NCBI GenBank assembly: GCA_037965595.1
Contig: CP150183.1
Coordinates: forward strand, 186,001-250,000
Direction: 5' to 3'
Length of the DNA stretch: 64,000 nucleotides
Source: Alkalihalobacillus sp. FSL W8-0930
GTDB lineage: Bacteria; Bacillota; Bacilli; Bacillales; Bacillaceae_D
In this document: positions 29,373 to 40,944 of the stretch, piece after piece
How the letters are laid out: each line of letters begins with the position of its first letter
Position numbering within the stretch: the first letter of the stretch is position 1
Translations under genes and position numbers: made by a program
Notes under the pieces: generated by a model
The model's database searches: none
Told to the model about the DNA's origin: nothing
Seen by the model: only the letters and a program-made list of their open reading frames with translations

Positions 29373-30230
29373 ATGTATTTTCCAAAGTTCTGGGCAAAAT
29401 CAATAGTAAATGAAAGAGAAGCTTCAGGGACTCAGTTCTCCATCCCTGTATGGCGATGGTCTGATCATAGCTTGGATGATGCGCAGCAACTGGCAAATCA
29501 AGCGGCGGAGCTTTTACGAAGTCGCATTCGTTCTGGTGAGTATTTGTCGAACGAATATTACGGCGATCGACCTGTTCGAGAAGAAGTAATCTTTGAACAA
29601 AAAGATGAGCAAGAATCAGCGGAATTGGTCATTACGCGGAATGCGCAGGGTTGTTTGGTGTTGAACACGGCTCATGTGATGTTTGTGGACGTTGATATAG
29701 AAGAACCTAAACCGACGCTATTCAAACGCGTTCTCGGTTTGTTTTTTGAACCAACTGAAAAACCTGAAACGATTGAGGAAGCAGCCATTAAGCATATAAG
29801 AGGATGGGTTGAAGAACATTCAGAAAGAGGCGTACGTGTGTATCGAACCCGAGGGGGGCTGCGTTATTTAATCACGCATAAGATTTACACACCAGGAGAT
29901 GCGGATTCAGATCGGTTATTGGAGCAATTGAACAGTGACCCGCAGTATCGAAAGCTGTGCTCTGCTCAAAAAAGCTTTCGAGCACGGCTGACTCCTAAGC
30001 CAAAGCGGATTGGACTGTATCAACCTCCCGTGCGGTTTCCCTACTTGAAGCAAGAAGAAAAAAAGCAGATGGATCAATGGGAGCAGAATTATAAAAACGC
30101 TTCTTCCAAGAGGCGAACGTGTGAGCATGTGGCCACATTTGGGAATCCAATCATTCATCCTAAGGTACAAGATGTAATCGAACTACACGATCAAATGACT
30201 GAATTACATAAAGATTTGCCACTGGCATAA
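29373..30230 (+). CDS. Conserved hypothetical protein with DxD and RTRGGLR motifs
   Basis: 285 residues. I know this sequence type from widespread unnamed proteins of proteobacteria and Bacteroidetes: FPKFWAK, WRWSDHSLDDA, YGDRPVREEV, VMFVDVDIEE, RVYRTRGGLRYLITH, FRARLTPKP and CEHVATFG. The acidic FVDVD strand and the later YRTRGGLR strand recall the DxD and sGGxH motifs of archaeo-eukaryotic primase-like folds, but the histidine is replaced by Arg. No function is established. GAGGGGATTCGT provides the ribosome binding site. Confidence 0.72.
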   Translation: MYFPKFWAKSIVNEREASGTQFSIPVWRWSDHSLDDAQQLANQAAELLRSRIRSGEYLSNEYYGDRPVREEVIFEQKDEQESAELVITRNAQGCLVLNTAHVMFVDVDIEEPKPTLFKRVLGLFFEPTEKPETIEEAAIKHIRGWVEEHSERGVRVYRTRGGLRYLITHKIYTPGDADSDRLLEQLNSDPQYRKLCSAQKSFRARLTPKPKRIGLYQPPVRFPYLKQEEKKQMDQWEQNYKNASSKRRTCEHVATFGNPIIHPKVQDVIELHDQMTELHKDLPLA

Positions 30231-30252
30231 CAGATCAAGAAGGAGCGATTTT

Positions 30253-30624
30253 ATGGACGTATTTGCAGAGTTTTTAGAGGGAATTGATAACCCGGACCAT
30301 CGCGCGAGAACAGAAGAGGTATTAGCGTGGGTGCTTAAAACGTATCCGGAGCTTGCGCCAAAGATTGCATGGAACCAACCGATGTTCACGCATCATGAAA
30401 CATTTATCATTGGATTTAGTGTAGCAAAGCAGCATTTGGCCGTTGCACCTGAAAAGGTTGTTATTGATCGCTTTTCTGATGAAATTAAAGAAGCTGGTTA
30501 TGATCATACGGCTCAATTGGTTCGCATGAAGTGGAAGATGCCAACGGACTTTTCTCTCATTGGTAAGCTGATTGAGTTTAACATTCAAGACAAGGCTGAA
30601 GTGACAACATTTTGGCGTAAATAG
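30253..30624 (+). CDS. Frataxin-like iron chaperone (YdhG/DUF1801 family)
   Basis: 123 residues with the YdhG/Fra fold signatures FLEGIDNPDHRARTEEVLAWV, PKIAWNQPMFTHHETFIIGFS and HLAVAPEKVVIDRF. B. subtilis YdhG (Fra) donates iron for Fe-S cluster and haem synthesis. AAGAAGGAG precedes the ATG. It lies 22 bases after the previous gene and is followed by a terminator, so the two may form a unit. Confidence 0.86.
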   Translation: MDVFAEFLEGIDNPDHRARTEEVLAWVLKTYPELAPKIAWNQPMFTHHETFIIGFSVAKQHLAVAPEKVVIDRFSDEIKEAGYDHTAQLVRMKWKMPTDFSLIGKLIEFNIQDKAEVTTFWRK

Positions 30625-30626
30625 TG

Positions 30627-30667
30627 AAGGGCGAAACGAGCAGATAGAGCTTGTTTCGCTTTTTTTG
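30627..30667 (+). terminator. Terminator after the frataxin-like gene
   Basis: GCGAAACGAGC pairs with GCTTGTTTCGC around AGATAGA, followed by TTTTTTT. Confidence 0.88.
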
Positions 30668-30677
30668 GTATGAGCTT

Positions 30678-30835
30678 CTTGCTTTTAGTGGACTTCTTCT
30701 TGGTGATGGGAGGACGGGACTTGGTGCAAGGGATTAGAGCTTGGTGGGATCTGCGTTTAGCTTGATTAAACCTGTCTTTTTCTTGTTAAGAAGTAGGTTG
30801 TTCTTACTAATCTGTAGATGTTTCTTGGTAAGCAT
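30678..30835. repeat. Array 1 of degenerate 21-bp-period CTTGGT repeats
   Basis: Eight units begin at 30678, 30699, 30720, 30740, 30761, 30782, 30803 and 30824, at steps of 20-21 bases. Their cores are CTTGCTTTTAG, CTTGGTGATGG, CTTGGTGCAAG, CTTGGTGGGAT, CTTGATTAAAC, CTTGTTAAGAA, CTTACTAATC and CTTGGTAAGC. The bases between cores are variable. It fills the gap between the frataxin terminator and an ECF promoter. See array 2 at 38455. Confidence 0.75.
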
Positions 30836-30863
30836 TAAAAAATTAATCTAATTTTAAAATACG

Positions 30864-30890
30864 TGCCACTTTTTATGGTTTTCATTCGTC
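30864..30890 (+). promoter_or_regulatory. Possible ECF-type promoter
   Basis: TGCCAC (30864-30869) and CGTC (30887-30890), 17 bases apart, lie 29 bases before the sigma gene. They fit the ECF pattern TGAAAC/CGTC only partly. Autoregulation by the encoded sigma is the idea. Confidence 0.4.
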
Positions 30891-30919
30891 TATATAAGTG
30901 AAGGGAGAGTGAGACTTTT

Positions 30920-31453
30920 TTGGAAGATAAAGAATTGGTTAAACGGATGCTGAATGGAGACGAATTGGCCTTAGAGGCTTTACATAAACGCTATGCTCGT
31001 CAAATCTATCATTATATCTATACGGAGACGAGCAATTATGATGCGGCGGAAGAGATCCTCCAAGAGGTCTTTTACAAAGTGGCAACGAAGATCAGTCACT
31101 TTAAACAACGCTCATCATTTAAAACGTGGATCTACGTAATTACAAGACACGCTATTATTGATTATTATCGTAAACAGGAAACACAACTAAAGACCGTTCC
31201 ATTACAGGAAGAGTTTATTGATTACCGTGGAGGAGTTGGACACGGAGAGCAATTATCAGAGCTACAGCATCTCATTAACCAGCTCCCTTTAAAGTATCGG
31301 CGCATTATGCATCTTAGGTACGTTGAAGAATTCTCGTTACTTGATACAGCAAGGATTACAGGGGTCTCAGTGATGTCAGTTAAGTCTACGCAAAAGCGTG
31401 CGAAAAAGATGCTGAAGACACAGCGGGATGAGGGGGTAGCGTATAATGGATAA
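30920..31453 (+). CDS. ECF-type RNA polymerase sigma factor
   Basis: 177 residues from TTG 30920 (AAGGGAG at 30901-30907). Region 2 (YDAAEEILQEVFYKVATKISHF, FKTWIYVITRHAIIDYYRK) and region 4 (LPLKYRRIMHLRYVEEFSLLDTARITGVSVMSVKSTQKRA) are complete. It overlaps the next gene by 8 bases, a membrane protein that should be its anti-sigma factor. The regulon is not visible from here. Confidence 0.9.
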   Translation: MEDKELVKRMLNGDELALEALHKRYARQIYHYIYTETSNYDAAEEILQEVFYKVATKISHFKQRSSFKTWIYVITRHAIIDYYRKQETQLKTVPLQEEFIDYRGGVGHGEQLSELQHLINQLPLKYRRIMHLRYVEEFSLLDTARITGVSVMSVKSTQKRAKKMLKTQRDEGVAYNG

Positions 31454-32819
31454 TCCCAAAGAGAAGAAATACATTGTCTTACCTCATAGTGCTTACACCA
31501 AAAGCTTAAAAGCATTCAAACAAGGCATGCAGGACGCCGAAGAACCAAAGCCTAAAAGCCGAGGCGCATATATCGCATCAAGCCTAGGAGCTGCTGCGTT
31601 ACTAGGGTTCATTATTTTCACCGTCTTACCGATAACCGACAACCAAGAACAGCCGGCAGATGAAGAGAATCAGGTAGAGAAGGTAGAGGAAGTGAATGAA
31701 GAGAAGGCTGTGGATTTTGATGAGATTGATGTGAATGAGGAATTGCTTTCTGAGGTGGTGGAGCGACCGGACTATGAGCTAGGTGATGTTGGTGGAGGGG
31801 GAGATAAACAGTTTCATCATGATGAACTCCAAGTATTTGTACCGGATGATTGGGAGATGAGTAGAAGCGATGACGGTTTTGCTAACGGAACCAAAACGAC
31901 TTTAACGGGATTTGGTGGAGTTCAGCAAACGATATTAATTTTTGAGAATGAAGCTTCCCAGGAAGAGGTTAATCAAGCGAGGGAAGAGTTGTTGTCAGAT
32001 ATTATGTATACAAAGGCGACAGAAGTTCCGATGGATTGGTTAAGATACTTATTTGAAGAAGAACAACAGCTAGGTATAGAGTTCCACTTTCTTAGTAGAT
32101 ATGATAATCGTTTTGCAATTGAATTAGATGATACAACTAAAATGTATACATTAATAAATGAAAATGATAGGCGTTTGTACGATTATGTTGAAGCTGATTT
32201 ATTTGGGAAGAAGCTCATACTATTAACGGATATTAATTCAACTCATTCAAGTAAACTTGCTTCGACCTATGTTACTTTGAGTGGTATTACTCCAAGTAAC
32301 GCTTACGATATGGTAGCAGCTTATGGACCTTATGAGCAAAAGTACGGCAGGCGCTCATCGATCACAATCTTAACTGGAATGCCTACGTATGATTTCACAG
32401 AATTACTCCTTTACGAGCATGAACTAGGTTTTACAAGTTATCTAGAAGAGGGAACGGAAGTAGAGAAAATTGAGCGGAATGGATTCACGGAGTGGAAATT
32501 TGTTCATGAGAAGAATGGAAACAATAGTTACTATTCGTTTGGAAAGTTAGATCCATCTGTTTCAGTTGAAGATGCAAAGGAAACGTTAATAAATGGATAT
32601 GAGTTTGATCCTCAATATGTTGAAGGGGCAAGTCATGTAAGCTTCTATCATATAATGCGACAAGGTCAGGATGACGAAATGCTAAGGACATTTGAACTCG
32701 TCCAGAAACAAGGCGACTGGTACTACATCTTCACGCAAGCGGATAATCGTGAGGGATTCTACTCTCCACAAATCGGCGCATTAGCCACCAAATTCCAACA
32801 AGAAATCATGTTCCACTAA
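31446..32819 (+). CDS. Single-pass membrane protein, probable cognate anti-sigma/sensor
   Basis: 457 residues. A short cytoplasmic N terminus (about 1-45, with YTKSLKAFKQGMQDAEE) precedes one membrane helix (about 47-64, GAAALLGFIIFTVLP). A large extracellular part follows, starting with an acidic linker and GDVGGGGDKQFHH. It is translationally coupled to the ECF sigma (8-base overlap), which is the main ground for calling it the anti-sigma factor. No zinc-binding ASD motif (HxxxCxxC) is seen, so the mode of binding would be different. The extracellular part has no domain I recognise. It is followed by a terminator. Confidence 0.7.
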   Translation: MDNPKEKKYIVLPHSAYTKSLKAFKQGMQDAEEPKPKSRGAYIASSLGAAALLGFIIFTVLPITDNQEQPADEENQVEKVEEVNEEKAVDFDEIDVNEELLSEVVERPDYELGDVGGGGDKQFHHDELQVFVPDDWEMSRSDDGFANGTKTTLTGFGGVQQTILIFENEASQEEVNQAREELLSDIMYTKATEVPMDWLRYLFEEEQQLGIEFHFLSRYDNRFAIELDDTTKMYTLINENDRRLYDYVEADLFGKKLILLTDINSTHSSKLASTYVTLSGITPSNAYDMVAAYGPYEQKYGRRSSITILTGMPTYDFTELLLYEHELGFTSYLEEGTEVEKIERNGFTEWKFVHEKNGNNSYYSFGKLDPSVSVEDAKETLINGYEFDPQYVEGASHVSFYHIMRQGQDDEMLRTFELVQKQGDWYYIFTQADNREGFYSPQIGALATKFQQEIMFH

Positions 32820-32822
32820 ACA

Positions 32823-32861
32823 AAAAAGGACGTTCTGCCACGTGCAGAGCGTTCTTTTTTG
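32823..32861. terminator. Bidirectional terminator
   Basis: AAAAAAGGACGTTCTGC pairs with GCAGAGCGTTCTTTTTT around CACGT, between convergent genes. Confidence 0.88.
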
Positions 32862-33251
32862 CTAGAGTTCTTTACACGCCCACGCATCAATCTCCACTTT
32901 AAACGGCGGTGCAGCGAGTGCGACTACATACAATAATGTGGTACATGGGAGATGTCCATCAAGAAAGTCATGAACAACCTGTCTCCGTTTGTCCGTTTCG
33001 AATTCTCCGACTAAATAAAAGACCAGTTTCGTTAGGTCTTTGATCTCCATCTCTGCTTCATCGAGATTCAGTTTAATGTTGTGGAGTGCTAGTTTTAGTT
33101 GCTCTATGGGATCTTCAGGAATTTCATTGTCTACACTCATCCCAAGCTGACCTGATAGGGTAAGCCACCGGTTCGGACCTGTGACTTCCATTTGATGAAC
33201 GTAGGGGGCTACGGGTTGGTGGACGGTGTTAGGGTTTCTTGATGTTTTCAT
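32862..33251 (-). CDS. RidA/YjgF-family protein
   Basis: 129 residues with LTLSGQLGMSVDNEIPEDPIEQLKLALHNI, LVFYLVGEF and CTTLLYVVALAAPPFKVEIDAWA. Members of the Rid family hydrolyse reactive enamine/imine intermediates. The Arg in the usual R-xx-V-E-V block is replaced by the sequence PPFKVEIDA (K in place of the bulky/Arg position), so it is a divergent subgroup whose activity may differ. Minus strand, with GGAGTCCACAT before the start; no partner gene. Confidence 0.82.
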   Translation of the reverse strand: MKTSRNPNTVHQPVAPYVHQMEVTGPNRWLTLSGQLGMSVDNEIPEDPIEQLKLALHNIKLNLDEAEMEIKDLTKLVFYLVGEFETDKRRQVVHDFLDGHLPCTTLLYVVALAAPPFKVEIDAWACKEL

Positions 33252-33341
33252 ATGTGGACTCCATTCTGAATTTTATTTTGCAGGAATTTCCTCTCATATC
33301 TTGAATGGTACAATATATCAATTAATAAGGGAGTGCTTTCT

Positions 33342-33488
33342 ATGCAGGATCGTATTTTAAACAACAACCGAGAGGAGTATGAACACCTTCTACTCCTTGT
33401 TACGATCTGTTCATTCTTTACATGTAAGAAAATTAAGAAACTTGAACGCTATAAAAAGAAACTAAAAGAACAGCTTCATATTACATAG
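33342..33488 (+). CDS. 48-residue small basic protein
   Basis: MQDRILNNNREEYEHLLLLVTICSFFTCKK... ending KKLKEQLHIT. A short hydrophobic stretch (LLLLVTICSFFTC) is followed by a Lys-rich helix. AAGGGAG lies 7-13 bases before the ATG. It is 12 bases upstream of the metallo-hydrolase gene and probably co-transcribed. No family recognised. Confidence 0.55.
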   Translation: MQDRILNNNREEYEHLLLLVTICSFFTCKKIKKLERYKKKLKEQLHIT

Positions 33489-33500
33489 AAACGGAGAGAC

Positions 33501-34286
33501 ATGATGCTAAATGATCCTTGGTTTACCGTTCAAGAGATTGACCCGTCCACATTTGCGATTAGCGAGTATGGTCATTGGGAGAAGGTTCACTCGTTTCTCC
33601 TTATAGGGGATAAGAGAGCTATGTTAATAGACACCGGGCTTGGTATTGATGATCTGTCAAGAGTGACCTCGCAGTTAACCAAGCTTCCGATCGATGTCTT
33701 AACGACACATGTACATGCAGACCATATCGGAAGCCACGGTCAATATGAGCGCATCTATGTTCATGAGGCTGATCAAGATTGGCTAGTCAACGGGATACAA
33801 GGACTTCCTCTAGAGCAAATACGAAAGGATATGAGTCGAGATATCACAGTTCCAACTCCTGATTCATTTGATCCTAAAACCTATCGACCGTTTCAAGGTG
33901 AGCCAACTGGTTTGTTGCGTGATGGTCAAGTGTTTGATGGTGGGGGCCGTGTGTTAACCGTATTACATACCCCTGGCCATTCACCGGGTCACCTCTCATT
34001 TTTTGAAAAGAAGAGTGGCTATTTGTTTACCGGTGATTTATTGTACGACACTACACCCGTGTATGCTCATTATCCATCAACGAGTCCCAGTGATCTTGCT
34101 GATTCCTTAGAGAAAATAGCAGCACTTGAAGGCGTTAGTAGAGTGTATGGAGCACATAATACATTAGGTCTTTCTCCTAAGATTCTAGATGAGGTCAGGG
34201 TTGCAGTTACATACTTGAGAGAGCATAACTTACTGCACTTTGGCACTGGGGTACACCAGTTTAATGGGTTTAGTGTTCAGTTCTAG
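33501..34286 (+). CDS. MBL-fold metallo-hydrolase
   Basis: 261 residues. Metal ligands are clear: HVHADHIGSHG (HxHxDH) near residue 72, HTPGHSPGH near residue 155 and the Asp in GDLLYDTTPVY near residue 176. The last ligand may be the His in YGAHNTLG. The family contains glyoxalase II, lactonases and others; substrate cannot be read. A further in-frame ATG lies at 33504. Convergent with the next gene. Confidence 0.88.
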   Translation: MMLNDPWFTVQEIDPSTFAISEYGHWEKVHSFLLIGDKRAMLIDTGLGIDDLSRVTSQLTKLPIDVLTTHVHADHIGSHGQYERIYVHEADQDWLVNGIQGLPLEQIRKDMSRDITVPTPDSFDPKTYRPFQGEPTGLLRDGQVFDGGGRVLTVLHTPGHSPGHLSFFEKKSGYLFTGDLLYDTTPVYAHYPSTSPSDLADSLEKIAALEGVSRVYGAHNTLGLSPKILDEVRVAVTYLREHNLLHFGTGVHQFNGFSVQF

Positions 34287-34303
34287 GTTAAACAAACGTT
34301 TGA

Positions 34304-34894
34304 TTAATAAGTTAGTTCAAATGTGGTGTCGGGTTTAAATCGCTTAGGCATATCTCTAAACTCCTTAAAGGTAAGTGTAAGTCCTGTTTCTTGATCAGGT
34401 AGAGCAGGGATAACGACAAAGCTTGTATTCATGTGTTCGCCCGAGCCACCGCCACCTCGCCACTGACATTCATAAGTCGTCTCGCCCCCTTTAATCACCA
34501 GTTCATAAAAGGGATGATCCTGAGAGTCAGAGTTATAGTCAGTTGCTAGATTAAGCACGCTGGCATTTTTATATTGTTTGATTAAAGTGATAGAGTGGAA
34601 CACGCCTTTGCATTCCACTCCTTTTAGGACGGGTATATTTTTAAGGAAGCCTTTAGGCTCAACAATTGGTTTATGCTCGTCCTCATAAAATAGGTTGGAA
34701 AAAAAGCTATGTAAGAATGCCTCTTCAAATTGAAGGTCTTTTGCCCATTTTGTGAGAAGCGACTTGTGTGGAAAGCCTGGATTATTTTGTGTGCGTTGCT
34801 TTCGTTCAGAGAGGAGCTTTAGAATTTCTTGATCTAACTCTTGAATCGAGTCATCATAATAATCGGCAGGTGGTTTTAGTGAAACTTGGTACAT
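34304..34894 (-). CDS. Hypothetical protein
   Basis: 196 residues. The first 40 residues (YDDSIQELDQEILKLLSERKQRTQ) look like the N-terminal helix of chorismate mutase-like folds; the remainder is a beta-rich domain with ECQWRGGGGSGEHMNTSFVVIPALP. I recognise no named family. GGGGGA lies 8 bases before the ATG on the minus strand. Confidence 0.6.
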   Translation of the reverse strand: MYQVSLKPPADYYDDSIQELDQEILKLLSERKQRTQNNPGFPHKSLLTKWAKDLQFEEAFLHSFFSNLFYEDEHKPIVEPKGFLKNIPVLKGVECKGVFHSITLIKQYKNASVLNLATDYNSDSQDHPFYELVIKGGETTYECQWRGGGGSGEHMNTSFVVIPALPDQETGLTLTFKEFRDMPKRFKPDTTFELTY

Positions 34895-34939
34895 GTAGGT
34901 TTTCCCCCAATATCTTTAAGTTAATGTAAGGAGTAAAAA

Positions 34940-35425
34940 ATGAACGGATCACAGGCCATTATGTTTTATTTTACAATAACTAGCCCATCTAATGTATTAA
35001 CGAATAAAAATCGAAGAGATGTCTCTGCGACCTTACGTGTAGAAGCGAATCTTTCCATATGGCATAAACAAAAGTTGTTTGTGAGAATTGAAGGACTCAC
35101 CATTCTAGAATTTTATAAAAGCTTAATTGAATGGGGTAAGTTAGATCATAATGATAAGATTCAAGCATTTTACTATTTTTCCATTGACCATGATGAGAGT
35201 GAAGGTCCAATTCTTTCTCTCGTTCCTTACCGTGATAAGGTATTAATGCAATCTATCTGGAGTGTTCGAGAAGAACCTATTGATTTTGAACAAAAGGAAA
35301 TTCTAAAGGCGTTTCTTTCATTAAAGCAAGATTTAAAGAAAGAGATTGAACATTACTTCAACATAGATCTTACGTCTTTTATAAATCATATCCCCTATCG
35401 AATTCACGAATCTACAAGTGGTTAA
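34940..35425 (+). CDS. Hypothetical protein
   Basis: 161 residues, MNGSQAIMFYFTITSPSNVL; beta-rich first half (VSATLRVEANLSIWHKQKLFVRIEGL) and a helical C terminus (FLSLKQDLKKEIEHYF). AAGGAG lies before the ATG. Divergent from the previous hypothetical gene, sharing a 45-base gap. It resembles small immunity-type or DUF-type singletons; no function assigned. Confidence 0.6.
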   Translation: MNGSQAIMFYFTITSPSNVLTNKNRRDVSATLRVEANLSIWHKQKLFVRIEGLTILEFYKSLIEWGKLDHNDKIQAFYYFSIDHDESEGPILSLVPYRDKVLMQSIWSVREEPIDFEQKEILKAFLSLKQDLKKEIEHYFNIDLTSFINHIPYRIHESTSG

Positions 35426-35592
35426 ACGGATTGGCTCTAGATGCACTTTTTTAAGACAAGAATGGCTTGAAGTCATACTGGAACCTCGCTTTCATTGCTT
35501 TTTCTAAGACACATTCAATAAAATGATCACGTATTCCTGCCATTCTATTTATATTGCAAAAGAGAAAGTGTTGAAGGGAAGGACAAAAAAGA

Positions 35593-35628
35593 CTAATGAT
35601 CCAAAATGAATCATTAGCCTTAGTTTTT
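35593..35628. terminator. Terminator between convergent genes
   Basis: CTAATGAT and ATCATTAG pair around CCAAAATGA, with AAAAAAG on one side and TTAGTTTTTT on the other. It can serve the aldehyde dehydrogenase remnant on the minus strand. Confidence 0.72.
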
Positions 35629-35637
35629 TATTCGTTC

Positions 35638-36165
35638 TTACAGCTTAAAAGAGATGAATTTCAACTCAGTCATTTCCTCTGTAGAATATTTAATTCCTTC
35701 TTTTCCAACTCCACTGTTTTTTACGCCGCCATATGGCATGTTGTCCACACGGAAGGAAGGAATGTCATTAATAATCACGCCTCCAACTTCTAACTCATCG
35801 GCTGCTTTAAAGGCAATGGATACTTCTTTTGTATAGATACCAGCTTGTAAACCATACTCTGAGTCATTGACTTTTGCGATCGCTTCATCAATATCACCAT
35901 AAGGCTCAATTGTCACAATTGGACCAAATGCTTCTTGGCAGTTTACAGAAAGATCCTTGGTTGCACCTGTAATAACGGTTGGTTCAAATACAGTTCCTTG
36001 AACATTGCCGCCAATTTCGATGGTAGCTCCTCTTTCTTTCGCTTCTTGAATCCAAGATTTCAAGCGATCTGTTTCCTTTGGATTAATAAGTGCTGATATA
36101 TCCGTATCTTCGCTCTTAGGATGACCCAGTGTTAGTGACTCAAAATGATTCTGCAATTGAATCAT
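35638..36165 (-). pseudogene. Aldehyde dehydrogenase, C-terminal remnant
   Basis: 175 residues matching the last third of aldehyde dehydrogenases: LTLGHPKSEDTDISALINPKE, VNCQEAFGPIVTI, YGLQAGIYTKE, MPYGGVKNSGVGKEG. The NAD-binding part and the catalytic Cys-containing segment (about 300 residues) are missing. The only start, ATG at 36165, lies inside a hairpin that also ends the LysR gene, so the junction looks like a deletion. It cannot form an active enzyme. Confidence 0.88.
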
Positions 36166-36172
36166 TCGTCAT
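36143..36172 (-). terminator. Hairpin at LysR end / ALDH truncation point
   Basis: AATGATTC and GAATCATT pair around a 7-base loop, 12 bases after the lysR stop on the minus strand. The core resembles the GATGATTC hairpins beside repeat copies A and B. Confidence 0.6.
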
Positions 36173-36183
36173 TTTCTCATTAT

Positions 36184-37041
36184 TTAAAGATACCCCAACA
36201 ATAACTCCAGATTCCTCCCCGGCACTGTGCCTTTCGTTACTACATAGGAAAAGGATCTCTCTTCCTGTAATCCTTCGATATCTACGGTTTGTAATGCCTG
36301 TTCTTTCAGTTCGGTTTGTATAGTAGCCTCTGATAGAAACGCATAGCCGAGATTGTTTTTGATGCTTTCCTTTATTCCATGAGTTGAACTAAAGATGATT
36401 GTGGAACCTAGTTGAATCTGGTTTGCAGCCACTAAGTGATCAAAGGAGGAACGGGTTCCGGAGCCTGCTTCTCGGATAACCCATGTCTTGTTCTGTAATT
36501 CTCCTAAGGTGTTCGGTTTATCTACATCTCCAGAGCATACAACGCGTAATCGGTCCTGTTGAAAAGGTGTGAGGGTTACTTCTTTTGAAGTAGTTTCCCC
36601 TTCGACAAAGCCTATGTCGACTTCAAAGGTCCTGACAGCATCAATGACAGAGTGTGAATTGCCCATAGTAATACTAATTTCGATCAACGGATGATCGTGA
36701 CGTAGGCGAGCAATTAACTGGGGTAGTATGTACTCTCCAATTGTAAAGCTTGTCCCAATCCGTATATGTCCTTCTGCTTGATGCTGTTGTTGATAGAGAG
36801 ATTCTTTTGTTTGCTCGTACAGAGCCTTTATCTTTAATGCTTGTTCATAGAACAAAGCACCCTCTACTGTGACATGCAGGGATTTAGTTGTTCGGTTAAA
36901 AAAGGTAGCCGAAAATTCCCTTTCTAGATTCCTGATATGAACGCTAACAGTGGGTTGTGAGAGCGACCGTCTTACGGCCGTCTTTGTAAAATTCTTTTCC
37001 TGAACAAGTGTAATAAAGGTCTCAAGCTCATCCATATGCAT
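36184..37041 (-). CDS. LysR-family regulator (CysL/YwfK-like)
   Basis: 285 residues from ATG 37041, which is 8 bases after AGGAGG on the minus strand. LysR helix-turn-helix ELETFITLVQEKNFTKTAVRRSLSQPTVSVHIRNLE, then a substrate-binding domain (HIRIGTSFTIGEYILPQL, VIREAGSGTRSSFDHL). Its divergent neighbour is a YeiH-type transporter, a common pair with CysL-like regulators of sulphite/sulphate assimilation. The 100-base shared gap has an AT-rich T-N11-A type region, the expected binding site. Confidence 0.9.
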   Translation of the reverse strand: MHMDELETFITLVQEKNFTKTAVRRSLSQPTVSVHIRNLEREFSATFFNRTTKSLHVTVEGALFYEQALKIKALYEQTKESLYQQQHQAEGHIRIGTSFTIGEYILPQLIARLRHDHPLIEISITMGNSHSVIDAVRTFEVDIGFVEGETTSKEVTLTPFQQDRLRVVCSGDVDKPNTLGELQNKTWVIREAGSGTRSSFDHLVAANQIQLGSTIIFSSTHGIKESIKNNLGYAFLSEATIQTELKEQALQTVDIEGLQEERSFSYVVTKGTVPGRNLELLLGYL

Positions 37042-37150
37042 CGGATGCACCTCCTATTATTTATTTTTTTAATTAATATTATTATATATATTTATTTCAC
37101 AAATAAAAAGAAGGGGAGTAAGCTTGAGGTAGACATCAGGAGGAGATTGT

Positions 37151-38137
37151 ATGCATAGTAGAAACTTCTGGATTGGGTTAGGATTAACATTTGGTATTGC
37201 TGGAATCGCTTATTTCGTGGCACAGGTTCCTTATATAGAGATTGTGGGGCACTTGGTAATTGCGATTCTGATTGGCATCCTTTGGAGGGGAATTATCGGA
37301 ATCAATCGCAATTATCTTCCGGGTGTGGAGTATGCGAGTACGAGGCTCCTTCGTTTGGGAATCATTTTACTCGGACTACGGTTAAATTTATTAGATATTT
37401 ATGAAGCTGGTTTACCAGTCTTTTTTTATGCGATTGTGTTGTTGATTGCTACATTGGCGGTTGTTTACGGATTATGTCGTGCCTTTCGTGTGAATCAAAC
37501 CTTAAGTATCTTAACTGCATGTGGAACGGCGATTTGTGGGGCAGCAGCGATACTGGCCATCGCCCCAATTGTCAAAGCAAAGGAACAGACCATAGGCGTA
37601 GCAGTAGCTGTGATAGCGCTACTCGGAACGGCGTTTACTCTTTTATATACTCTTTTGTATACGTGGCTCCCATTCTCAGATAATCTATTTGGCATCTTTG
37701 CTGGAGGGACCTTGCATGAAGTGGCTCATGTGGTTGCCGCATCATCAGTTGGTGGAGCAGATGCTGAGGATATGGGGATTGTAGTGAAGCTTACAAGAGT
37801 TGCATTGCTAGTACCCGTGGCGTTCGGAGTGATGACCTGGTTAAACAGAGGTGCAAAGCAAACCGGGTCTAAGAGCATTCCACCGATTCCGTGGTTCCTC
37901 TTTGGTTTTGTTGCGATGAGTGTGGTGAATACACTTGGAATCCTTCCCTCATCAATCATTGATTCGTGTATCTTTCTATCCTATCTCCTTCTTGCTATGG
38001 CAATGGCTGGACTTGGTCTGAAGATGGACGTAACGATTTTAAGAAAACAAGGAGGCAAGGTTCTTCTAGCTGGGTTCATGGGAACAATGATCTTGGTCCT
38101 TGCAGGTTTTGCGTTACTTACGTGGTTACCATTCTAA
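37151..38137 (+). CDS. YeiH/UPF0324-family membrane transporter
   Basis: 328 residues with ten membrane helices. Family blocks: LLRLGIILLGLRLNLLDI, TACGTAICGAAAILAIAPIVKAKE, GIFAGGTLHEVAHVVAAS and LLAMAMAGLGLKMDV. Members are putative sulphate/sulphite or small-anion exporters. TCAGGAGGAG lies before the ATG. It is probably controlled by the divergent LysR regulator. Confidence 0.87.
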   Translation: MHSRNFWIGLGLTFGIAGIAYFVAQVPYIEIVGHLVIAILIGILWRGIIGINRNYLPGVEYASTRLLRLGIILLGLRLNLLDIYEAGLPVFFYAIVLLIATLAVVYGLCRAFRVNQTLSILTACGTAICGAAAILAIAPIVKAKEQTIGVAVAVIALLGTAFTLLYTLLYTWLPFSDNLFGIFAGGTLHEVAHVVAASSVGGADAEDMGIVVKLTRVALLVPVAFGVMTWLNRGAKQTGSKSIPPIPWFLFGFVAMSVVNTLGILPSSIIDSCIFLSYLLLAMAMAGLGLKMDVTILRKQGGKVLLAGFMGTMILVLAGFALLTWLPF

Positions 38138-38206
38138 TGTTTGGCTTAAGTGAGTGGGTGGTATAGAAGTGTAGGTAACAAAGAGAACCAATGGAGGTCA
38201 TTTAAA

Positions 38207-38344
38207 ATGGAAACGTTTCAAGTGCTTATGGGGGTAACGAGCTTAAGTGTCCTGTTAGCTGCCTATGCCGAAACGAATGAAGCAAAAGCTAAGTTGATTA
38301 AAGAGAGTGCAGCGAACAAACTTGCGCCAAGCAATAAGTCTTAA
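38207..38344 (+). CDS. 45-residue small protein with a hydrophobic N terminus
   Basis: METFQVLMGVTSLSVLLAAY followed by a charged tail ETNEAKAKLIKES. ATG 38207 follows GGAGG by 8 bases; a longer reading from 38150 has no ribosome binding site. It lies 69 bases after yeiH and before a strong terminator, so the two may be one transcript. Function unknown. Confidence 0.6.
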   Translation: METFQVLMGVTSLSVLLAAYAETNEAKAKLIKESAANKLAPSNKS

Positions 38345-38348
38345 TAGA

Positions 38349-38392
38349 AGAAAAGAGGGAAGGTGGATTAGATCCACTTTCCCTCTTTTTGA
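38349..38392 (+). terminator. Terminator after yeiH and the small gene
   Basis: AAAGAGGGAAGGTGGAT pairs with ATCCACTTTCCCTCTTT around TAG, followed by TTT. Confidence 0.92.
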
Positions 38393-38454
38393 TTTTTAAG
38401 TGATATAAAGTTCTTTTACAGGCCTCATCTAGGAGGGGTGAAGTAGGTTCGCTT

Positions 38455-38713
38455 CTTGGTAAATTCCTCACACTTCTTAAACTAACATTCATTCTCCTTA
38501 TTAAAAGGGGGGCGAGCTTGATTAAATGTGACATCTAGCTTGGTTTTGTCTCTATTCTTCTGGGTAAAAGAGTATTTGTTCTTGGTATTAGATAAATGTT
38601 TCTTGGTAACGGCCTTGCTGCTTGCTAAATGGAGCCATGCGCTTGGTAAAAGGGCACGGCTCTTAGAGGAGTCCGCTCTATCTTAGTAATCACGCTTTTT
38701 GTCTTGGTAAATG
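38455..38713. repeat. Array 2 of degenerate 21-bp-period CTTGGTAAA repeats
   Basis: Thirteen units start at 38455, 38476, 38497, 38517, 38539, 38560, 38581, 38602, 38621, 38642, 38662, 38682 and 38703, mostly 20-22 bases apart. Best copies are CTTGGTAAATT, CTTGGTATTAG, CTTGGTAACGG, CTTGCTAAATGG, CTTGGTAAAAGG and CTTGGTAAATGG. ATGTTTCTTGGTAA and GAGCTTGATTAAA-like units are shared with array 1. The array runs into the last codons of the HAD gene (stop at 38690). Confidence 0.8.
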
Positions 38714-39367
38714 GACTTCGACTAGCTCTTTTATCTCCAATAGGTCATTAATGACAAAGTCAGCTTGCGCCAGCTCGTCTGCTTGGGCAAAGTCAAAGTT
38801 ACATCCAATTGATCGTAATCCATTGTCTTTGGCTGCGTTAATGTCCGATAGGCGATCGCCTACGACTACGGCTTGTTTGATGTGATAGGTTGTGAGGATT
38901 TTTTTGACGAGATCTCCTTTGTTCAGGGTGTCAATTTGTTGAATGCTGAAGGTTTCATCGATCCATTCATCTAGTTGATAATGCTGGACAATGGCGGCGA
39001 GATAATCAACTAATCCGTTACTTGCAATGTAAATGGAATAGTCAAGTTCCTTAAGGTAGAGGAAAAGCTTTTGGACATTAGGGTAGAGGGCGCCTTGCCC
39101 GTTATGTATGTTCGTGATGAGTGTGCTCAGAAAGTAAGCATCTGTTTGCTTGCGGATGGTTTCTGAGTGATTCGGTAATAAGGTTTCCCATACTTTTGGT
39201 AGGGGAACACCCATGATCTCACGGTAAGTATTAATTGGAGTTGGCCCGTCCCATTCGTCAATCGAGCGCAAATGGTCAAATGTGTCATCTAACGAGCGCT
39301 CGAGTATTTTGTCTGTTTGAAACAGGGTGCCGTCCATATCAAATATGACTGATGGGTTCATTTTCAT
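38690..39367 (-). CDS. HAD-superfamily hydrolase (phosphoglycolate phosphatase/PpaX type)
   Basis: 225 residues. HAD motif I FDMDGTLF (residues 8-15), motif II YIASNG, motif III Lys in LNKGDLVKKIL, and motif IV VVGDRLSDINAAKDNG. A helical cap lies after motif I. The substrate is not predictable. The last codons (LVEVHLPRQKA) lie within the 21-bp repeat array, so the C terminus may have been altered by array growth. Confidence 0.88.
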   Translation of the reverse strand: MKMNPSVIFDMDGTLFQTDKILERSLDDTFDHLRSIDEWDGPTPINTYREIMGVPLPKVWETLLPNHSETIRKQTDAYFLSTLITNIHNGQGALYPNVQKLFLYLKELDYSIYIASNGLVDYLAAIVQHYQLDEWIDETFSIQQIDTLNKGDLVKKILTTYHIKQAVVVGDRLSDINAAKDNGLRSIGCNFDFAQADELAQADFVINDLLEIKELVEVHLPRQKA

Positions 39368-39407
39368 CTCTCCTTCTTTTTACAATTCTTCTTCATTATA
39401 ACGAACA

Positions 39408-39440
39408 AAACCACGCTCTTGTGAAAAAGAGCGTGGTCAT
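39408..39440 (-). terminator. Terminator after the glycosyltransferase gene
   Basis: CCACGCTCTT and AAGAGCGTGG pair around GTGAA. It lies just past the glycosyltransferase stop on the minus strand. Confidence 0.82.
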
Positions 39441-39444
39441 ATTT

Positions 39445-40944
39445 TTATGCTTTGTGTCGACTGCGTAGTGTCCAGATCTTGTAGACCATCACGGATGATG
39501 CGAAAATGGTCAGATAGGTGAGAACTAGCCAGCCGAAGCGAAGGTAGGGTTCGGTTAGTTCCTGGATCTGTGCACTTGTTAAGAATTCTCTGTAATGAAT
39601 GGAAGCGAGTACAATACCTGCAATCATTAGAGTAAATAACCCAAGTCCTTGCCAGAGCTTACTTCTCGTTGTACCGTTTTCTGCTTGATACTGCTGGGCC
39701 CAGCCATCCTTTTTATATGGAGAAAGCTTATCGAGCCACACCTGGATAAAGGTTAGGAAGTTTACCCACAAGTAAATTTCGGTACTTATAATGAGGCCAC
39801 CGAGGAACACATCTATGGGTCGACTCATGGGTGTTTTTAAGGCCAAAATTACGTTTAAAATGGAGGCGAGGGCAGCAGGAATAATCCAAAGCCAAGACCA
39901 GACGAATTGGTCAGTCGAGAGGGAGACGGTTAAGAGTAAGAAAAATAAGATACGGATAAAGAGATCAATAAACGTCTTCATCTGCGACCGCCACAGCATC
40001 CCGTAGTGTCTGGTTTTAATTTTAATATCTTTGTTTGTTAACAGGTCAACCGTGCCACCGCGCCATTTGTTTCGCTGCTGGCGGTACGTATGGTAGGATC
40101 TCATCGCATCCACAAAGCAACGTGCGTCAGGGCTGATTAAGGTTTTCCATTTTAATTTTTGAAGCTGCCATGTGAGGAGCATATCCTCTACATCGCTATC
40201 GTTTTGCCATGGCCCGTCCAGGTTATTTTCATCGACGATTTTTTGAAGGGCTTCTGGACGAAACAACGTCGCCTGTCCACCGAGTACATACGTACTGCCC
40301 CCTTGGTATTGGAGGTTAAGAATCCAACTCGCCATGTCTTGTTTCTGCTGATGTGTCCACCAGCGTTGAATGGCACCTCCATATAAACCGCTTTGGATCT
40401 TCTGTTCATAATATGGATCGTCCCGTGTAAGGGAGCTTTTCTTCAACGGCATCCTCATCGTGTACTTTGCCATCACGCCTCCGATGTTGCGGGCGCTCAT
40501 AAGACCCTTCCATAAATGAATGAGCGCTTTAGGGGCGAGGCGACTATCCGCATCCATCCCAAGAATTGCTTTTACGGCAGGCTTGTACTTTTCTTGAAAA
40601 GGGGTTAATTTATTTTCGTATAACTCCATGATATCTCCATAGATGCTTTTCCAGGCAGTATTAAGTGCACCAACTTTTCGTTGTTTGTTTCCTTCTGTCT
40701 TTAAAACAATTACTCGTAAGTCTAACTCCTGACCGGCCTTTAAAGATTCTTCCTCGGTACGATCTGTACAATTGTCAGCAATAACAAAGACATCCAGCTC
40801 TACATTGGGAGGTAGTTCTTGATCGGCTAATCCTTCTAAGCAGTCACGGATGGAGAGTTCTTCGTTGTGAGCGGGTATAAAGGCAACAATTCTCGGTTTT
40901 ACATAGACACGTTTTAATGCTGAAATATCAATCGCTGGATTCAT
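39445..40944 (-). CDS. Membrane glycosyltransferase, GT2 family
   Basis: 499 residues. The catalytic domain has VAFIPAHNEELSIRDCL, the ADNCTDRT motif, MDADSR (DxD), SDVEDMLLTW (the ED base) and QQRNKWRGG (QxxRW-like). Four or more membrane helices follow (about 300-380 and 430-490). This is the layout of processive GT2 polysaccharide synthases (BcsA, hyaluronan, poly-GlcNAc). The product is unknown, and no accessory genes are adjacent. Minus strand, followed by a strong terminator. Confidence 0.87.
   Translation of the reverse strand: MNPAIDISALKRVYVKPRIVAFIPAHNEELSIRDCLEGLADQELPPNVELDVFVIADNCTDRTEEESLKAGQELDLRVIVLKTEGNKQRKVGALNTAWKSIYGDIMELYENKLTPFQEKYKPAVKAILGMDADSRLAPKALIHLWKGLMSARNIGGVMAKYTMRMPLKKSSLTRDDPYYEQKIQSGLYGGAIQRWWTHQQKQDMASWILNLQYQGGSTYVLGGQATLFRPEALQKIVDENNLDGPWQNDSDVEDMLLTWQLQKLKWKTLISPDARCFVDAMRSYHTYRQQRNKWRGGTVDLLTNKDIKIKTRHYGMLWRSQMKTFIDLFIRILFFLLLTVSLSTDQFVWSWLWIIPAALASILNVILALKTPMSRPIDVFLGGLIISTEIYLWVNFLTFIQVWLDKLSPYKKDGWAQQYQAENGTTRSKLWQGLGLFTLMIAGIVLASIHYREFLTSAQIQELTEPYLRFGWLVLTYLTIFASSVMVYKIWTLRSRHKA

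Follow-up and report, generated by a model that had tools for sequence, protein, structure and literature searches.

The window analysed here is a stretch of 64 kb, corresponding to positions 186001-250000 of the 3,885,014-bp contig of the source strain (genome G000). Its forward strand carries a gene for a YeiH-family putative sulfate exporter (37151..38137), which matches TIGR00698 at 2.1e-55, under the curated cut-off of that model. This gene is followed by an ORF of 45 codons that was read by eye (38207..38344, forward strand) and is preceded by GGAGGT, and then by an intrinsic terminator consisting of a hairpin and a T-run, which was located by folding (38350..38396, forward strand; -31.3 kcal/mol and z -7.0 for the region 38340-38400). 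About 60 bp past this terminator begins a row of short repeats, array 2, whose 3' side is bordered by a gene for a HAD-type hydrolase on the opposite strand (38690..39367, reverse strand). The original prediction had array 2 follow the terminator of yeiH; a terminator is indeed present, but the 45-codon ORF intervenes between it and yeiH.

Array 2 (38455..38711, forward strand) consists of thirteen polar CTTGGTAAA-like units with a period of about 21 bp, which start at 38455, 38473, 38497, ~38517, 38539, 38560, 38581, 38602, 38621, 38642, ~38661, 38682, and 38703. All thirteen units that had been announced were located, the one at 38661 (CTCTTAGAG) by eye; the distance from unit to unit is 18-24 bases and not, as had been stated, 19-22. 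The coding end of the HAD gene holds the last unit alone (38703-38711), which corresponds to Leu-Pro-Arg of the terminal ...VHLPRQKA*, while unit 12 reaches the stop codon and no further, so that only the final one of the units said to encode the HAD C-terminus does so. A second row of the same family, array 1 (30678..30831, forward strand), has eight units at steps of 21, 21, 20, 21, 21, 21, and 21 bp. It lies between a 123-codon gene without an NCBIfam match (30253..30624, forward strand) and, on the same strand, an ECF sigma factor gene (30920..31453; TIGR02937, 3.4e-26), for which matches at E <= 1e-30 are present in all five genus genomes.

A weight matrix trained without the arrays of the window gave a score of 66.5 for array 2, in which it found 12 units, and of 51.8 for array 1 (8 units), whereas no chain above 15.1 arose when the complete 64-kb window was dinucleotide-shuffled 100 times. 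Array 2 is confirmed as a real feature of the window, and its proposed relationship to array 1 is supported. With the minimum score set to 30, Tandem Repeats Finder lists neither array. In a search of window positions 30001-40000 with Rfam, only sub-threshold matches were obtained at the arrays, among them one to an sRNA (20.6 bits vs 208 needed) that covers the terminator and part of array 2.

The pattern CTTGGTAAN{9,14}CTTGGTAA, which is close to the one suggested for a genome-wide search, proved too strict for the degenerate cores and found nothing in the genome. The family, referred to as family A, was recovered with a tolerant pair pattern combined with a chained matrix. Used by itself, the tolerant pattern has a high background (forward, 135 matches vs 70 with the pattern reversed; reverse, 76 vs 52). 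In the loci examined first, 48 chains were detected vs 5 in a reversed, uncomplemented control. Altogether 717 kb were examined (18% of the genome), partly regions with pattern hits and partly spaced samples, and the chained matrix identified 32 array pieces with 485 units in them. These pieces represent 29 loci, as seven of them are four arrays split by an insertion sequence. Further arrays thus exist well beyond the two in the window, which supports the prediction of a dispersed family of 21-bp-phased arrays.

The family-A core, TTCTTRGTAW, is asymmetric, about 9 bp long and repeated at 20-21-bp steps; its conserved positions are C, T, T, (G/A), (G/C/A), T, and (A/T), preceded by a T. The spacers are free in sequence and A-poor on the motif strand, and G-rich as well as C-rich spacers are present. 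Among 425 steps in G000 arrays, 410 measure 20-22 bp and 396 either 20 or 21 bp (280 of 21 bp, 116 of 20 bp, and 14 of 22 bp). Taken as two helical turns, the steps correspond to 10.35 bp per turn, a value that is half the mean step by construction. The recurrent form of the arrays is a polar 12-unit module with the step order 21, 21, 21, 20, 21, 20, 21(22), 21, 20, 21, 21; one common order was found in 35 modules, 17 of them in G000 and 18 in a second genome of the genus, G001. Additional letters are conserved at certain module positions, chiefly in unit 6 (TATCGGCGCCTGT-like) and in units 7-9. One module is connected to the next either by an 18-bp step, which interrupts the phase between them, or by a linker of ~42 bp. 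Several linkers contain the palindrome AAAAATG(TT/AA)CATTTTT, for example at locus L045 near 7080 and at L044 near 11360.

Family-A arrays are intergenic; most lie on the 3' side of transcription units, in antisense orientation. In 23 of 27 G000 loci, the called gene nearest to the 3' end of the array runs on the opposite strand, as counted with a simple coding-score gene caller, with IS-split arrays merged by hand and with three Rfam-found rRNA operons included. Across three species, this applies to 42 of the 49 rows having such a gene, a count that includes non-independent orthologous rows. The caller used is a rough one, and some ten rows have no called gene within 1 kb. Exceptions to the antisense rule are array 1, L043, and two arrays in L044. 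Stable RNA genes are among the neighbours. A family-A array lies downstream of four of nine 5S genes in G000, at 82-83 bp, and of four of eight in genome G004, at 78-163 bp, and all eight of these arrays are antisense. The other five 5S genes of G000 have no array directly downstream, and the same holds for each of the eight 5S genes examined in genome G008. At L039, an array follows a tRNA cluster, and at L040 an array faces a tRNA gene. At 22 of 29 loci, the motif lies on the strand opposite the assumed leading strand, in a count made by hand on non-random loci with the origin taken as base 1 and the terminus as mid-contig. A guanidine-I riboswitch (L045:6667-6772, reverse strand) was found ~130 bp ahead of a 37-unit array.

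The pattern hits indicate that the genus is Alkalicoccobacillus (porphyridii, murimartini, gibsonii). Exact 4-unit matches are present in all five genus genomes, with 14 in G000, 19 in G001, 9 in G002, 246 in G003, and 15 in G004. In the same 40-genome search, only one of 35 genomes outside the genus matched (G023), and this match was rejected as an unrelated perfect repeat. A family-level search with another step order yielded matches in 5 of 41 genomes and one of seven genera. When GTDB genomes were searched for the 4-unit pattern with steps of 20, 21, and 20 bp, 44 stretches were obtained; all 29 from Alkalicoccobacillus carry a family-A array of at least 6 units, and 15 are from elsewhere. 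Four of these 15, from the unrelated bacteria Chitinophagales, Achromobacter, and Prevotella (L104, L106, L115, L117), contain rows of 8 to 11 chained units with steps of mostly 20-21 bp; with family-A matrix scores of 42-53 they are about level with array 1 and look like other tandem repeats. Rows of this kind can thus arise outside the genus, which weighs against the reading preferred below.

Within the genus, the arrays occupy orthologous sites in sister species, which answers the question of conservation between strains raised with the original prediction. The flanks of 10 of 12 G001 array loci and of 4 of 8 G002 array loci align to array loci of G000, the remaining ones having no partner among the G000 loci compared. 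The higher-order step pattern is species-specific, with 12-mers in G000 and G001, (20,20,21) in G002, (21,21,20) in G003, and alternating 20/21 in G004. At the array 1 site, arrays are present in G000, G001 (decayed), G002, and G004, with differing spacers and higher-order patterns, and G003 has none within 1.5 kb; no single array therefore seems to be essential. The array 2 site carries arrays in G000 and G001, which are also the only two of the five genus genomes with HAD gene matches at E <= 1e-30. In G003, array matches are found at contig starts (C11:42, C55:47, C111:166), where the assembly is probably interrupted by the repeats.

Alignment of 12 orthologous array pairs from G000 and G001 showed identity at 455 of 472 core positions (positions 0, 1, 2, and 5 of the unit; 96%), compared with 754 of 1062 spacer positions (8-16; 71%) and 1611 of 1868 flank positions (86%), and 152 of 174 steps are kept. 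This comparison covers one species pair and the 118 of 220 units in gap-free alignments, and the core-anchored alignment may inflate core identity. It suggests selection on core and spacing. The head-to-tail cores all face one side of the helix and are kept, along with their spacing, while spacers turn over, which points to an oligomerising DNA-binding protein with sequence specificity. The arrays lie beyond gene ends, in part next to rRNA operons and frequently between convergent genes; this location suggests that they insulate transcription units at their ends or serve there as a backstop.

Our preferred explanation, to which we give not quite an even chance, is that family-A arrays are helically phased sites for an oligomerising DNA-binding protein and serve as insulators or backstops at transcription-unit ends. 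Phasing, polarity, modules, conservation, location bias, and the site choice of an insertion sequence described below are read from the sequence; from these we infer the protein, its filament, and the function. The arrays would act as DNA elements and not as RNA. A spacing of 20-21 bp, or two helix turns, would place all ~9-bp sites on one face, where a putative oligomerising protein could occupy them in head-to-tail order and build up a polar filament or wrap, in this species often over 12 sites (~250 bp). Situated beyond the ends of transcription units, including several rRNA operons, and antisense to them, such a complex might be an insulator or a backstop against readthrough or the spread of supercoiling, or else a nucleoid anchor. 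A tandem-repeat DNA-binding protein (PMC11417379) was considered as the factor and rejected, as no link to these bacteria was found in the part of that source available.

The main rival is that the arrays are neutral or selfish bacterial satellites, generated by slippage and unequal recombination, tolerated in intergenic 3' regions only, and owing their period to the duplication mechanism. The number of units at orthologous sites varies as this would predict (12 vs 18, 27 vs 38, and 37 vs 53), the higher-order repeats would represent recent duplications, and both the 246 exact 4-unit matches of G003 and the lack of a visible array within 1.5 kb at its array 1 site fit as well. Rows of period 18-21 with other words also occur in unrelated genomes, as found in a search biased to such spacing. 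However, satellites would not be expected to have cores better conserved than spacers and flanks, and in the one species pair compared, core conservation appears to contradict them. Moreover, the same core is found at dispersed loci across species whose flanks are roughly 70-90% identical, and the mixed 20/21 steps hold their order instead of drifting to a single integer period. We consider this explanation unlikely.

A second alternative is that the arrays are decoys or sinks, which titrate either a regulator of paired direct repeats two turns apart, such as a LytTR-type protein, or a replication or partition protein of an invader. The 9-bp direct repeats of LytTR regulators of the HdrR type are described in the available part of PMC6193735 as mostly 12 bp apart, with a minority at 11 or 13 bp. 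The resulting operon repeat period of 20-22 bp includes 410 of the 425 array steps. In contrast to the arrays, the LytTR boxes described there are single pairs upstream of promoters. Family A forms long rows mostly past gene ends, its cores are by eye unlike the LytTR repeats listed in the accessible text of PMC6193735, and, judged by row length and gene orientation (23 of 27 loci), the rows are not pairs just upstream of a -35 box; gene orientation places most of them away from promoters. With regard to invaders, four array queries had no BLAST match in 72,556 plasmid records, a search that short cores with free spacers can escape, and one array query had no match in phages. Two viral contigs match the 4-unit pattern. 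A decoy function is thus improbable, and a plasmid or phage origin of the arrays, likewise considered, has no support in the plasmid and phage searches.

The insertion sequence that splits family-A arrays is an IS3-family element (orfA, 96 aa; orfB, 295 aa; NF033516, E 4.4e-98). The G000 genome contains four copies that are at least 94% identical (G000:C1 318737-320127, 371009-372398, 2907319-2908707, and 3768266-3769657), and all four are inserted in family-A arrays, which total ~9.7 kb in the loci read. A fifth copy with 68% identity, at 3387563, lies within an array of another core, TTTTTGMGCA (family C). The 3-bp repeats flanking the copies, read by eye, are CAG, GCG, TCT, and CAC, and since they differ, the insertions look independent. 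These observations would suit arrays that are non-autonomous mobile elements or a landing pad of the IS system, spread by the transposase and now its target. The arrays of G001-G004, however, occur in genomes without any match to the IS3-family element, arrays remain at orthologous sites, the element splits arrays and does not bound them, and terminal inverted repeats were not noticed on the arrays, so that this explanation is very improbable.

Insertion of IS3-family elements into repeats is a described, though not universal, feature of the REP/PU elements and BIMEs of enterobacteria and pseudomonads: IS1397 and ISKpn1 target REP/PU elements according to the accessible part of PMC1525189. Family A shares this feature (four of four copies) and the many dispersed intergenic copies (32 pieces in 717 kb). 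It differs in that REPs are palindromic and alternate in orientation within BIMEs, whereas the arrays run head-to-tail with a non-palindromic core and a module folding z near 0, are phased at two helical turns, and have 5 to about 50 units per row. Family-A arrays are therefore filed neither with REP/BIME elements nor with LytTR boxes. Other traits of REP/BIME elements are the binding of gyrase, IHF, or DNA polymerase I and an associated RAYT (IS200-like) transposase. The DNA gyrase binding of BIME-2 is reported in PMC2817692, and the backstop role proposed here would, by analogy, resemble the roles discussed for BIMEs in the available portions of PMC2817692 and PMC1525189.

The least probable alternative, one scarcely to be expected, is an element acting at the RNA level, in which the transcribed array would be a 3' UTR or a sponge RNA with regularly spaced sites for a protein or sRNA. 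Polarity, the strand asymmetry of the A-poor sequence, and the position near gene ends would be compatible with this. The consensus fold of 25 modules, however, contained no structure on either strand (mean z, -0.8 and -0.1), in a weak test in which shuffled columns were equally empty, and Rfam gave no match at gathering score at the arrays of 13 loci and of window positions 30001-40000, so that a structured RNA is supported neither by alignment folding nor by Rfam. In addition, spacers are both G-rich and C-rich, the mixing of 20 and 21 nt has no obvious meaning in single-stranded RNA, and array 2 lies beyond a strong terminator. Of the two binding partners proposed at the outset, the protein is favoured over the small RNA, since this weak test revealed no conserved RNA structure. 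A protein-coding heptad repeat was ruled out, as 20-bp steps break the frame.

The arrays were also compared with other classes of direct repeats. Plasmid iterons and ParR/parC centromere repeats are direct repeats of ~20 bp that are cooperatively bound by an oligomerising protein, but they occupy one locus per plasmid beside rep or par genes, whereas family-A arrays are scattered over the chromosome. CRISPR arrays resemble family A in having a constant word and a variable spacer in a row; their repeats measure about 23-50 bp and their spacers are longer, in contrast to the 20-21-bp period and ~9-bp core found here. The TAACTGA heptamer repeats of Beggiatoaceae and cyanobacteria, as presented in the accessible part of PMC4679880, are short-word intergenic direct repeats in many sets per genome, as are the arrays, but they change in length by increments of 7 nt instead of showing a 20-21-bp period and, in the Beggiatoaceae genome, lie mostly just upstream of start codons. 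A survey of 7006 prokaryotic genomes reported 161,465 periodic DNA repeats, heptamers being the most abundant in intergenic DNA; the portion of its text consulted (PMC6344855) does not mention 20-21-bp rows. Within the open-access literature, none of the classes compared has the defining geometry of the arrays, uniting long head-to-tail rows, phasing at two turns, exchangeable cores, and placement past gene ends.

The exchangeability of the cores became apparent in a generic search for tandem rows with periods from 10 to 45. The 457 kb of G000 that it covered, made up of spaced samples and the window, contained nine rows, six of them with a best-fit period of 20-21 (seven under an alternative tie-break); a block-shuffled G000 control gave zero rows. 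For L178 the best fit is labelled 19, but the autocorrelation of this row is highest at 20 and multiples thereof. G004 yielded 12 rows in 400 kb; nine had a period of 20-21, and one of the nine is coding (L221). The corresponding numbers are two of five rows in 400 kb of G008 and one of two rows in 360 kb from 12 other genomes. The strongest lags are mostly 20, 21, 40-42, or 60-62, and lags of 41 and 61-62 are frequent in Alkalicoccobacillus. Families besides A have the cores TTTGTTGATTC / CTCCGTCGATTCC, TTTTTGMGCA, CTCGCGCAT, CTAAYGCTCCA and, in G008, TTATTCGCGGTT, and these too keep 20-21-bp steps. The CTTTGTTGATTC / CTCCGTCGATTCC family with its 20-bp period is found at L045:1545-2180, L041:4390-4590, L034:13711-13911, L178:6621-6961, and L185:12362-12622. 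The CTAAYGCTCCA / CATYGCTCCA family is found at L190:15589 and L191:18111 in G000 and at L228:14510 and L214:14861 in G004, the strongest lag being 41 in three of these four rows and 61 in L191.

Rows of CGCGCA at 20-bp steps matched in 28 of 298 genomes of the order, representing 17 of 116 genera. Ten genomes also gave matches to the reversed control pattern. Among the 28, the number of matches exceeds the genome's own control in 26, the other two being G298 (40 vs 46) and G128 (1 vs 1). ATTCGCG rows were found in three of the 298 genomes. Yet another word forms a 22-unit row with a 20-bp period from ~7561 of L136, a locus on a contig of Neobacillus sp. Marseille-Q6967 that was picked up through the pattern search.

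A broader reading is plausible enough to propose, with the balance leaning against it: Bacillales may possess a class of intergenic elements that is defined by geometry and not by sequence, namely polar rows with a ~10-bp core every two helical turns (20-21 bp), with several core families per lineage or genome and with diversifying binding proteins. The cores in question would be TTCTTRGTAW, TTTGTTGATTC / CTCCGTCGATTCC, TTTTTGMGCA, CGCGCA, CTAAYGCTCCA, and TTATTCGCGGTT. If true, such a class and its proteins would be the bacterial equivalent of satellite DNA and the proteins that bind it, situated at the ends of transcription units. For practical purposes, the arrays would serve as strain markers, and they probably break short-read assemblies. 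If a protein does coat the arrays, it would represent a new nucleoid or insulator factor in ordinary Gram-positive bacteria, for which the arrays themselves are a ready bait.
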